A stretch of DNA of 64,000 nucleotides from Roseiconus nitratireducens (GTDB lineage: Bacteria > Planctomycetota > Planctomycetia > Pirellulales > Pirellulaceae): NCBI RefSeq assembly GCF_008629675.1, contig NZ_VWOX01000003.1, positions 248,001 to 312,000 on the forward strand, written 5' to 3'. Position numbers and translations under genes: made by a program. How positions within the stretch are numbered: the stretch's first letter is position 1; each line of letters starts with the position of its first letter. Shown here piece after piece: positions 49,048 through 52,400 of the stretch. Under the pieces are notes generated by a model. It searched no databases. It saw nothing but the letters and a program-made list of their open reading frames with translations, and was not told where the DNA came from.

Positions 49048-49404
49048 GTTTCTACCCTGCGATTCCACCCTGCGATTTCGACAGGACGGATCCAGGCTGC
49101 CGCCGCGATGGCCGGCCGTGAACGGTGGATGACTTGTCAGCGGATGCAAGTTGGCGCCGCGAGACTCTCCACGCGAGATTTTCCCGTGCCTTGCGTTCGC
49201 CGACTCGGGTTTTTCTGACCGTCACGCCCAGGCACATCGCCAGCCTGGCAACCTCGCGAGTGTTGAAAACCGGTCGTTCGCGCCCGGCATTCTTGCGCAA
49301 AGACCCGTCTCCGATTAACCGAATTCAAATACAGCCCCGCTAGACTCGGCCGCACCTCAGGACGACCTCCACGAAGCCCTTTTCAAGGGCGAGGGATCCA
49401 TGGC
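49048..49404. other. Region upstream of the lipid-remodelling operon
   Basis: 357 bp. It should contain the promoter of the plcP-btaA-btaB genes. I looked for pairs of CTGTCAT-like sites (Pho box) at 11-bp spacing and found no convincing pair. A short direct repeat (accctgcgattyc) lies just after the sulfatase stop. Confidence 0.5.
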
Positions 49405-50364
49405 ATGAGCCAAAGCGAGCCGACATCGGTCCGAACGCTGCTCGTCAGCGACGTGCACCTCGGTTGCAAACACGCGCGCACCGAAGAATTCCTGTCCTTC
49501 TTCCAACGCTACCGCCCCCGAACCCTGTATCTGGTCGGAGATTTTCTGGACGCATGGAAGATCAACTCGGGTTGGCATTGGACACGGCAATGCGATCAGG
49601 TCATCCACCATTTGATGTCATTGATCGATGGTGGGACGGAGGTGTTCTACACCCCCGGGAATCATGATGCGTTTCTTCGTCAAAGTGTGTTTCGGTCAAT
49701 GCTGCCGACAGGTTTTCCGGCAATTCGGATCGCCGACCAGTTCATCTTCGAGACCAGTGGCGGGTGGCGTTTTCTGGTCACCCATGGCGATCTGTTCGAT
49801 TTCTTTGAAACCAAAGCCCAATGGATCTCCAAGGGCAGTTCGTCCTTCTATGACGGATGCCTGAGTTTGAATCGTTGGTTCCAAAGTCGATTTCTGCACG
49901 CCGACCGCAACCCCTATGGCGCGTGCGCGGTGGTCAAGGGACGGGTCAAGCGCGGCGTGAAATTCATCAGTGGGTATGAAAACAGAATCATGCGTCACGC
50001 GGCGGATCATCGCTGTGACGGTGTGATCTGCGGTCACATTCATACACCTGCGATCAAGCAATCCGAATCCGTCTGGTACTGCAACACGGGTGATTGGGTG
50101 GAGAACTGCTCCGGGCTGGTCGAACGTCTGGACGGCAGTTTTCAACTGGTCTCGCGATACGACCAGGCAATCGATTTGCAACTGCCGCCGAAGATGGCAT
50201 CGCTAGGGATTGACGCCACGGCCCGACGCGACAACGGGATGGCTGCTTACCCATCACGCCCAGCCACAGCAGATCCCTTCATCGATGCCGAACCTGGCGG
50301 GCAGGCGTCGGCCTCATCGGGTGAACATCAAGCGTCCAAGGTCTGTGCCCGATCGGTCGCTTGA
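49405..50364 (+). CDS. Metallophosphoesterase, PlcP-like phospholipase C or LpxH relative
   Basis: 319 residues from the ATG at 49405, with GAGGGA upstream. The calcineurin-type two-metal site is complete: DVH (16-18), GDFLDAW (45-51), GNHD (85-88), THGD (126-129) and GHIH (210-213). The family includes LpxH (lipid A synthesis) and the rhizobial phospholipase PlcP, which strips phospholipid head groups during phosphate shortage. The btaA start only 33 bp downstream favours PlcP. That would supply diacylglycerol to BtaA. The last 60 residues are low complexity. Sequence alone cannot separate the two activities. Confidence 0.72.
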   Translation: MSQSEPTSVRTLLVSDVHLGCKHARTEEFLSFFQRYRPRTLYLVGDFLDAWKINSGWHWTRQCDQVIHHLMSLIDGGTEVFYTPGNHDAFLRQSVFRSMLPTGFPAIRIADQFIFETSGGWRFLVTHGDLFDFFETKAQWISKGSSSFYDGCLSLNRWFQSRFLHADRNPYGACAVVKGRVKRGVKFISGYENRIMRHAADHRCDGVICGHIHTPAIKQSESVWYCNTGDWVENCSGLVERLDGSFQLVSRYDQAIDLQLPPKMASLGIDATARRDNGMAAYPSRPATADPFIDAEPGGQASASSGEHQASKVCARSVA

Positions 50365-50397
50365 CGCGGCGGCTCTCCTTCCAGTTTGGATTCTTCA

Positions 50398-51603
50398 ATG
50401 GTGAAACAATGGATTGGTCAGAAGTATTTTTCGGCGGTCCACCAACGCAATCTGGTCTACAACACTTGTTGGGAGGACCCGCGTTTGGATCGTGCCGCAT
50501 TAAACCTAGGTCCCGACGACACCGTGCTGGTGATCACGTCGGCCGGGTGCAACGCCTTGGACTATGCTTTGCAAGGACCACGTGCCATCCACGCCGTCGA
50601 CGTGAATCCGCTCCAAAACTCGCTCCTGGAACTGAAGAAAGCGGCGATTCAGACGCTGGACTATGGCGACTTTTTTCAGGTGTTCGGCCGGGGACAACAC
50701 CCACGTTGGAAATCGCTGTATGCCGACGGCGTGAGACCAGCTCTGGCGCCGCACGTTCGCCGCGTTTGGGATGACCGCCAGGGTTTCTTCGACGGATCCA
50801 GCCGCCGCAAGAGCTTTTACTATCGCGGGACGTCCGGGATGTTTGCCTGGATGATCAACGGCTATCTGAATCGTCCCCGCGGACTACGGGATGCCGTGCG
50901 GGAAATGTTGGCCGCCGACACCGTGGATCAACAAGCTGAAATCTACCGGCGGCGACGCGTCTCCGAATTGCTGTTCACCGGCCCGATTCGCTGGGTGCTT
51001 CGACGGGATACCACCATGTCCCTGCTGGGTGTCCCGCGAAGCCAGCGGATGCAGATCGAGCGGGGGTACCCACGCGGAATCGCAGGCTTCGTCCAGGATC
51101 GGATCGAAGCGGTGTTCAATCAGATCCCCCTGAAAGACAATTACTTCTGGCGTGTCTACCTGACCGGACAGTACTCGCCCAATTGCTGCCCGGAATACCT
51201 GACGCGGGACGGGTTCAACGCGTTGCAAGCGGGCCTTGCCAATCGCATTCAAACCGCCACCGCCACGGTGGAAGACTTTCTGAACCGACACGACGGCGCG
51301 GTTTCCCGGTTTGTGCTATTGGATCACATGGACTGGCTGTACGAGAACATGCCGGAGCGGTTGGCGGCGGAGTGGCAGAGCATTGTCAACCGGTCGGCGC
51401 CCCAGACGCGGATCCTGTGGCGGAGCGCGGCGTTGGACGTCGACTTCGTGGACCCCCTGCGGGTCACCGCCGCCGGAGAACTGATTCCGGTTGGAGACTT
51501 GCTGCGGTACCAGCGGACGCTTGCTGGAAAGTTGCATCGGTCCGACCGGGTCCACACCTACGGCAGTTTTTACATCGCCGATCTGCAAGGCGGTGCCGCA
51601 TGA
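50398..51603 (+). CDS. btaA: S-adenosylmethionine:diacylglycerol 3-amino-3-carboxypropyl transferase
   Basis: 401 residues from the ATG at 50398. BtaA moves the aminocarboxypropyl group of S-adenosylmethionine onto diacylglycerol, making diacylglyceryl-homoserine. DUF3419 landmarks are LVYNTCWEDPRLDRAAL at the N-terminus, the cofactor-binding VLVITSAGCNALDYAL and HAVDVNPLQNSLLELK. YWRVYLTGQYSPNCCPEYLT lies in the middle and LLDHMDWL near the end. The length matches rhizobial BtaA. It overlaps btaB by 4 bp (ATGA), so the two are coupled. Confidence 0.87.
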   Translation: MVKQWIGQKYFSAVHQRNLVYNTCWEDPRLDRAALNLGPDDTVLVITSAGCNALDYALQGPRAIHAVDVNPLQNSLLELKKAAIQTLDYGDFFQVFGRGQHPRWKSLYADGVRPALAPHVRRVWDDRQGFFDGSSRRKSFYYRGTSGMFAWMINGYLNRPRGLRDAVREMLAADTVDQQAEIYRRRRVSELLFTGPIRWVLRRDTTMSLLGVPRSQRMQIERGYPRGIAGFVQDRIEAVFNQIPLKDNYFWRVYLTGQYSPNCCPEYLTRDGFNALQAGLANRIQTATATVEDFLNRHDGAVSRFVLLDHMDWLYENMPERLAAEWQSIVNRSAPQTRILWRSAALDVDFVDPLRVTAAGELIPVGDLLRYQRTLAGKLHRSDRVHTYGSFYIADLQGGAA

Positions 51604-52400
51604 GCGTCACGACCGATCCCAAGGGTGCCGGCGATGGCTCACCCCCAACGGTCGACTTCCAAGACGCGACGCTTGCGAGTGACCTGAAAGTTCTTTGGAA
51701 TCTGATCGCCCGTCCCGTCCGCGGCGCCACGCACGCCGAGCGACTGGAAAGTTTTTACGGACACCAGGCGGACCAATATGATTCGTTCCGATCGCGGATG
51801 CTGCACGGCCGCAACGAATTGATCGACCGCATTGTGTTTCCCGCCGCGGGCATTTGGGTCGATGTGGGCGCGGGGACGGGCAACAACATCGTCCACGCCG
51901 GTCATCGCACACGGGCGTTGCGTGAGATTCATTTGGTGGACTTGTCGCGATCACTGCTGGAGGTCGCCCAGAAGCGGATCTCCTCGGCCGGCATCGAGAA
52001 TGCTCGCGTGCACCTTGCCGACGCGACGCAATTCCAATTGCCGGCGGAGAGCGTCGACGTCATCACTTTCTCCTATTCGCTGACGATGATTCCGGATTGG
52101 TTCGAAGCGATCCGACAGGCCGAACGGATGCTCAAGCCGGGTGGGACGATCGCGGCGACGGACCTCTATGTCTCGCGAAAGTACGCTGCGGATACCTGCC
52201 GGCAGCACGGGTGGCTTCGACGTGCATTTTGGACGCACTGGTTCGCCGCGGACAACGTCCACTTAAGCGGTGACCATTGCGCGATGCTGCAACGCACGTT
52301 CGACTGCGAACTCTTTCACGAGCGGATGGGCCGCGTTCCCTATTTGCCGCTGATCCGCGCTCCGTATTACTTGTTTGTCGGCACGAAACCGGGACGCTGA
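51600..52400 (+). CDS. btaB: S-adenosylmethionine:diacylglyceryl-homoserine N-methyltransferase
   Basis: 266 residues. BtaB adds three methyl groups to diacylglyceryl-homoserine, yielding the betaine lipid DGTS. It is a class I methyltransferase: IWVDVGAGTGNN (motif I), IHLVDLSRSLLEVAQKR (motif II), VDVITFSYSLTMIPDWFEAI (motif IV and beyond) and MLKPGGTIAATDLY. AERLESFYGHQADQYDSFRSRML before the fold is typical of BtaB. The 4-bp overlap with btaA makes the assignment much stronger than sequence alone. Confidence 0.84.
   Translation: MSVTTDPKGAGDGSPPTVDFQDATLASDLKVLWNLIARPVRGATHAERLESFYGHQADQYDSFRSRMLHGRNELIDRIVFPAAGIWVDVGAGTGNNIVHAGHRTRALREIHLVDLSRSLLEVAQKRISSAGIENARVHLADATQFQLPAESVDVITFSYSLTMIPDWFEAIRQAERMLKPGGTIAATDLYVSRKYAADTCRQHGWLRRAFWTHWFAADNVHLSGDHCAMLQRTFDCELFHERMGRVPYLPLIRAPYYLFVGTKPGR

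Follow-up and report, generated by a model that had tools for sequence, protein, structure and literature searches.

The window analysed here, a stretch of 64,000 nucleotides from Roseiconus nitratireducens (contig NZ_VWOX01000003.1, positions 248,001 to 312,000 of the forward strand), carries three adjacent genes, plcP, btaA and btaB, by which phosphorus-containing membrane lipids would very probably be degraded and a phosphorus-free lipid rebuilt at low phosphate. We assign a probability of about 0.88 to the reading of this cluster as a phosphate-starvation membrane-remodelling operon. The genes are three intact open reading frames on the + strand, with coordinates exactly as first noted in an original prediction made from the sequence alone. 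That prediction had described a complete phosphoesterase gene, btaA starting 33 bp past its stop codon and btaB overlapping btaA by 4 bp, which was confirmed to the base (the stop-start overlap is ATGA); its interpretation as a betaine-lipid remodelling operon is likewise supported by the sequence comparisons reported below. The features considered are the following (window coordinates).

49315..49331, + strand: candidate Pho box TTAACCGAATTCAAATA, a direct repeat of 11-bp period, seen as a footprint when the window and 11 relatives are aligned
49339..49346, + strand: -10-like element GCTAGACT, 7 bp past the repeat, with a putative promoter function
49405..50364, + strand: plcP, 319 aa, calcineurin-type phosphoesterase (PF00149), predicted intracellular phospholipase C
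50398..51603, + strand: btaA, 401 aa, ATG start, predicted S-adenosylmethionine (SAM):diacylglycerol 3-amino-3-carboxypropyl transferase (PF11899)
51600..52400, + strand: btaB, 266 aa, predicted diacylglyceryl-homoserine N-methyltransferase (PF13649/PF08241)

In the mechanism that we propose, low phosphate would be sensed by a PhoR/PhoB-type system, whose regulator would bind the TTAACA-N5-TTMACA repeat observed before plcP and switch on one transcript, a single transcript being expected because of the gene spacing. By analogy with the Sinorhizobium meliloti enzyme, PlcP would remove the head group of phosphatidylethanolamine (PE)-type lipids, yielding diacylglycerol and a phosphoalcohol whose phosphate could be recycled. 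As expected from the characterised BtaA and BtaB enzymes, BtaA would then transfer the 3-amino-3-carboxypropyl group of SAM to diacylglycerol, and BtaB would methylate the product three times to give the betaine lipid diacylglyceryl-trimethylhomoserine (DGTS). The net outcome would be the exchange of membrane phospholipid for a phosphorus-free lipid.

Identity of the three enzymes

PlcP scored 44.1 bits on the Metallophos family PF00149 (Pfam cut-off 21.5). The phosphoesterase could also be a divergent LpxH serving lipid A synthesis, its place before btaAB being incidental. Public annotation speaks for this alternative, as PlcP relatives in plasmid records often bear the LpxH name 'UDP-2,3-diacylglucosamine diphosphatase', a naming that hides the pathway in databases; in addition, LpxH is the nearest solved protein both by sequence and by fold, and besides the window gene no LpxH-like gene was found in the source genome. 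However, on the two LpxH models NF003743 and TIGR01854 the window protein reached only 51.7 bits (cut-off 134) and 47.0 bits (cut-off 190.35), below both equivalog cut-offs and similar to PlcP of S. meliloti (38.1 and 38.9) and of a Pseudomonas aeruginosa plasmid (55.1 and 44.5); Escherichia coli LpxH scored 364.3 and 388.9 bits. Identity was 31% to S. meliloti PlcP (275 columns) versus 22% to E. coli LpxH (223 columns). The S. meliloti reference, LZK74_26085, which is neighboured by acyl-homoserine-lactone synthase and LuxR genes, is presumably the characterised PlcP SMc00171.

The alignment points in the same direction. The motifs GNHD and N-x-GDWVE are common to the window PlcP and four PlcP references, whereas E. 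coli LpxH has GNRD in place of GNHD and lacks N-x-GDWVE. The arginine of the LpxH GNRD motif is functionally important, and the window protein carries GNHD instead. Residues D16, H18, D46, N86, H127, H211 and H213, which we take to be the metal ligands of the two-metal calcineurin-type site, are invariant across 19 aligned PlcP sequences, including that of S. meliloti. In a tree of 43 rows, six LpxH references formed one side of a branch supported at 100/99, and the window protein fell on the side of the planctomycete and proteobacterial PlcP, inside the planctomycete group starred in the tree (98/100). A seventh row annotated as LpxH-like, from Thioclava, was placed among the PlcP rows on a long branch; a long-branch warning also covers three of the six LpxH references, and the placement of such rows is unsure. 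The fold search could not separate PlcP from LpxH function.

The genome context was also searched. No match to the LpxH models exceeded the cut-offs in the source genome (93% complete, 108 contigs, so that a missed lpxH is possible), and the only match, below cut-off, was the window PlcP. An lpxD gene overlaps an LpxI gene there; the LpxI protein exceeds the cut-offs of both LpxI Pfam domains and scores 136 against a cut-off of 400 on the strict NCBIfam equivalog. Since LpxI is able to replace LpxH, this pair would cover the lipid A step and no LpxH would be needed. The psd gene was found as well, so PE, a plausible PlcP substrate, can be made. The original prediction had named, as an outcome that would speak against it, a phosphoesterase that groups firmly with LpxH and is the only copy: no second PlcP or LpxH-like gene was indeed found in the genome, but in the tree the protein stands apart from LpxH, and its reading as PlcP agrees with model scores, motifs and tree. 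On the model scores, the motif, the tree and the presence of lpxI, to which the pstS-like promoter repeat and the conserved neighbourhood of btaAB or glycosyltransferase genes, both described below, can be added, we rejected the LpxH reading, which is now hardly credible. Judged by its sequence, the window phosphoesterase is PlcP-like and not LpxH, and we infer by analogy that it would hydrolyse PE or phosphatidylcholine to diacylglycerol.

BtaA matched DUF3419 (PF11899), which we take to be the BtaA family, over its full length (residues 12-394, 385.2 bits, Pfam cut-off 28.2). It is 33% identical to the DUF3419 protein of Sinorhizobium sp. RAC02 over 361 columns, and its segment ITSAGCNALDY, mostly invariant among 22 sequences, appears to resemble a SAM site. 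The fold was predicted with good confidence (mean predicted local distance difference test, pLDDT, 86.8); the solved structures that it matched in a search were mostly methyltransferase-like, and all matches were weak (E not below 0.001). BtaB matched several class I methyltransferase Pfam models, including PF13649 and PF08241, and shares 28% identity (223 columns) with the methyltransferase adjoining S. meliloti btaA. This S. meliloti btaA is in two pieces in CP090106.1, which limits the comparison with it to the first 203 residues. By analogy with the proteobacterial enzymes, we expect diacylglycerol 3-amino-3-carboxypropyl transfer by BtaA and triple methylation to DGTS by BtaB.

Conservation and distribution among planctomycetes

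A genome scan with the window BtaA gave 236 relatives, of which the best 80 loci, mostly planctomycete, were analysed; many of them lie on short contigs, so that the absence of a neighbour is not always informative. A PlcP-like match was present within the flank in 20 of the 80, strong in 19 (E 1e-64 or better) and weak in one (L077, 24% identity). The order plcP-btaA-btaB was kept in all 11 best-scoring loci (L015-L025, from Stieleria, Rhodopirellula, Neorhodopirellula and kin), with -4 to 53 bp from plcP to where the BtaA match starts, and so was the 4-bp stop-start overlap of btaA and btaB (ATGA in ten loci, GTGA in L019). Identities to the window proteins were 54-75% for PlcP, 64-72% for BtaA and 56-69% for BtaB. 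As judged from these sequences, the arrangement is beyond chance, order and overlap being kept despite modest protein identity. In three further loci (L026, L028, L029) plcP adjoins btaA and no btaB homologue was found in the flank; it may lie elsewhere.

We then considered 60 genomes from the family of the window, the Pirellulaceae. BtaA was matched at E 0.001 or better in 44, strongly (E below 1e-50) in 42 of these, the match of G021 being split in two pieces, and BtaB was matched at E 1e-30 or better in 42. With the strict cut-offs the two sets were identical: 42 genomes had both genes and 18 had neither. Two genomes outside the 42, G034 and G040, gave only weak BtaA matches (E 7e-8 and 2e-5) and no BtaB. 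Some pairs are far apart or on separate contigs, and genome searches located btaB away from btaA in, for example, G008, G010, G017, G031, G051 and G059. This exact pairing speaks for joint action of BtaA and BtaB in planctomycetes, as in proteobacteria. It also bears on the possibility that the operon makes another diacylglycerol-based aminolipid, such as unmethylated diacylglyceryl-homoserine or diacylglyceryl hydroxymethyl-trimethyl-β-alanine (DGTA), and not DGTS. That possibility draws on the identity of only about 30% between these BtaA and BtaB and the proteobacterial ones, and on the similar fragmentation of DGTS and DGTA described in the accessible text of PMC10667739, by which mass fragments alone cannot distinguish them. 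It is countered by the pairing of BtaA with BtaB in 42/42 genomes and by the neighbourhoods, in which no third gene family besides plcP was conserved beside btaAB in most loci, and we regard it as improbable.

PlcP was found in 17 of the 60 genomes, namely in 16/42 with btaAB and 1/18 without (Fisher p 0.012, a guide only, as the genomes are related). It lies immediately before btaA in eight genomes. In G006 the order is btaA-btaB-plcP and the PlcP is only 35% identical to that of the window (L145, G006:C1:1981500-1987500), an arrangement which suggests that plcP joined btaAB more than once. In G009, G018, G043 and G059 (L114, L115, L116, L148) plcP stands beside a glycosyltransferase gene of PF13528 type or similar, which is divergent from plcP in G009 and known by tblastn only in G059; in G057 (L146, G057:C75), the genome without btaAB, its neighbour is related to the P. 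aeruginosa glycosyltransferase. In these pairs the same remodelling may take a glycolipid form in planctomycetes. In 14 of the 17 genomes plcP thus adjoins a phosphorus-free-lipid gene, either btaAB (nine, in two gene orders) or a glycosyltransferase gene (five), whose enzyme would use PlcP-derived diacylglycerol; in G027, G029 and G049 no btaAB or glycosyltransferase neighbour was found with these queries. G036, of the same genus as the window, carries a second PlcP away from btaAB, 60% identical to that of the window (L109, G036:C1:3434755-3435549); by eye, the gene adjoining it is sulfatase-like. Among the 42 btaAB genomes, 26 gave no plcP match.

Promoter repeat and phosphate control

The 260 bases upstream of plcP were aligned for the window and L015-L025 (12 regions). 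One block of 17 bases was conserved, beginning with TTAAC (CTAAC in L020) and mostly ending with ACA, which can be read as the direct repeat TTAACA-N5-TTMACA with an 11-bp period. The period and letters of this repeat are similar to those of the Bacillus-type Pho box. Exactly 7 bp past the repeat, the element G(A/C)TA..CT was present in nine of the 12 regions (not in L020, L024 and L025). The region upstream of plcP showed no TTGACA-type promoter, and a scan for sigma-70 promoters and terminators gave no more than shuffled sequences do. An E. coli-type Pho box (CTGTCAT-N4-CTGTCAT) was rejected, its best occurrences in the 12 regions having 5-7 mismatches of 14; the repeat of the window group is TTMACA-like, unlike this CTGTCAT-like type.

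A matrix trained on the 12 plcP sites was run over the regions preceding pstS (PF12849), with which the phosphate transporter operon begins (PstC model 241.7 bits, cut-off 196.45), in 11 genomes. PstS had been searched in 15 genomes, 14 of which gave a match, and the regions used were those of the window's own genome and ten others; G009, G018 and G043 (matches 28-31% identical) and G038 (no match) were left out. The set comprised genomes with plcP-btaA-btaB (G000, G011, G013, G028, G036, G037, G045), G006 with btaA-btaB-plcP, and G019, G053 and G055, which have no plcP match. Scores of at least 12 were obtained in eight of the 11 regions (22.6, 21.9, 19.0, 18.6, 14.6, 13.0, 12.6 for the window's own genome, and 12.3). 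Over the 80 loci, plcP sites included, the frequency of such scores is about one per 25 kb of strand, and the maximum in reversed pstS regions (ten tested) was 11.4.

The converse scan used a pstS matrix; its training sites were picked by a generic repeat, independently of the plcP matrix, and that of G037 was one of four ties. L077 was left out, and 59 btaA loci without plcP were used after the removal of one whose upstream sequence was too short. Of 20 plcP loci, 15 had an upstream site at E<0.05, although at a place other than the aligned block in L016 and L020, compared with 8/59 btaA genes without plcP and 12/252 other conserved genes (Fisher p 7e-7 versus btaA alone and 1e-13 versus other genes, kinship uncorrected). 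With a matrix built from the 11 relatives only, the window site ranked first of 127968 window positions (16.9, the next being 10.7). The repeat common to plcP and pstS promoters supports phosphate control, and this candidate element is good evidence that plcP-btaA-btaB belongs to the Pho regulon in the group of the window. Phosphate control, a guess in the original prediction, has thereby gained support from the sequences of both promoters in the group as a whole; the window's own copy of the repeat is weak by the pstS matrix and is backed by the matrix of its relatives.

Several observations weigh against our reading of the operon. By the pstS matrix the window repeat scored 6.0, below the best scores of the other 11 regions, with 0.10 occurrences expected by chance. 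Three of the 11 pstS regions were low by the plcP matrix (7.5, 4.6 and 3.7), and the second or glycosyltransferase-linked plcP copies reached E<0.05 with the pstS matrix in only 3/7 cases. In the window's own genome the strict pattern TTAACANNNNNTHMACA had no match; the looser pattern TTMACNNNATYTTMA had three, one before the pst operon and two inside coding sequence, and as it does not fit the window plcP site no wider regulon was drawn. To these points are added the nearest solved structures to the predicted PlcP fold, which are LpxH, as the superfamily predicts, and the low identity of BtaA and BtaB to the proteobacterial type. DGTS, the transcript and the enzyme activities are all predictions here.

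DGTS might also be made constitutively, or under a control other than phosphate. The 26/42 btaAB Pirellulaceae genomes without a plcP match, the small enrichment of the repeat at btaA without plcP (8/59) and the weakness of the window's own repeat by the pstS matrix favour this alternative; it is at odds with the repeat common to pstS, which is conserved and enriched where plcP leads the operon, and for the window we consider it unlikely. Across the family, the many genomes without a plcP match and the scarcity of the repeat hint at constitutive DGTS in much of the Pirellulaceae. We tentatively suggest two DGTS regimes: most Pirellulaceae would make it constitutively, as an everyday membrane constituent, with btaAB lacking plcP and the Pho box, while the Rhodopirellula-Stieleria group would have placed plcP and a Pho box in front as a phosphate-starvation switch. 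If this were true, betaine lipids would have a large bacterial source in planctomycetes that has gone unrecognised.

Relation to known systems

The window cluster, with plcP followed by btaA and btaB in the same direction, is the known 'type 1' arrangement of Sebastian et al. (ISME J., PMC4796936), an operon type on record for other marine bacteria, in which btaA and btaB likewise lie downstream of plcP in Phaeobacter sp. MED193. According to the accessible text of that paper, a cluster of this type makes DGTS upon phosphate starvation in Phaeobacter MED193, deletion of plcP abolishes DGTS, and putative Pho boxes accompany plcP clusters, as a candidate one does in the window. The window differs in belonging to another phylum, whose PlcP and BtaA are divergent, and in its repeat, which is of the TTMACA-like and not of the CTGTCAT-like type. 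The S. meliloti enzymes (L097, L098) are homologous to those of the window, but there plcP is not linked to btaAB, from which about 390 kb separate it in CP090106.1. The portions available of PMC4796936 and PMC3972451 report that S. meliloti PlcP acts on PE-type lipids, and that of PMC3972451 that plcP and btaAB are under PhoB control. Pairs of plcP with a glycosyltransferase (type 2 in the text available of PMC4796936; also the P. aeruginosa plasmid copy) share the PlcP step and would pass the diacylglycerol to another phosphorus-free-lipid enzyme, so that a glycolipid and not a betaine lipid is expected; they occur in other Pirellulaceae and not in the window.

The presence of BtaA in planctomycetes is not new, as it was already included in a 2023 phylogeny (PMC10685587), whose accessible text is silent for planctomycetes on plcP, on operon structure and on phosphate control. 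The original prediction knew of no such operon highlighted in this phylum; the literature searched, which excludes most subscription papers, yielded no description of the operon or of its Pho control in planctomycetes, and the main text of Sebastian et al. contains the word 'planctomycete' 0 times (PMC4796936). New here is the repeat of 11-bp period upstream of plcP that is common to pstS promoters. A 2023 lipidome paper (PMC10667739) names Alpha- and Gammaproteobacteria, Actinobacteria, Verrucomicrobia and Bacteroidetes as the sole groups known for betaine lipids, and reports a correlation of these lipids with Planctomycetota as well in the material that it studied. The traditional attribution of betaine lipids is to phytoplankton (PMC4796936). 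If a phosphate-controlled DGTS operon exists in Rhodopirellula and Stieleria, together with btaAB in 42/60 Pirellulaceae, part of the phytoplankton signal could be planctomycete.

Two minor observations were made at other btaA loci. A gene of 400 aa following btaA in 11 loci without btaB was first read as a btaB substitute; this was rejected, as the gene is presumably ArgJ, judged from its sequence without a family search. In 12 btaAB loci of Mariniblastus and other Pirellulaceae (L033, L039, L045, L047, L048, L057, L065, L066, L068, L069, L070, L089), btaA is preceded by the genes of two small proteins that are related to each other (median 235 aa).

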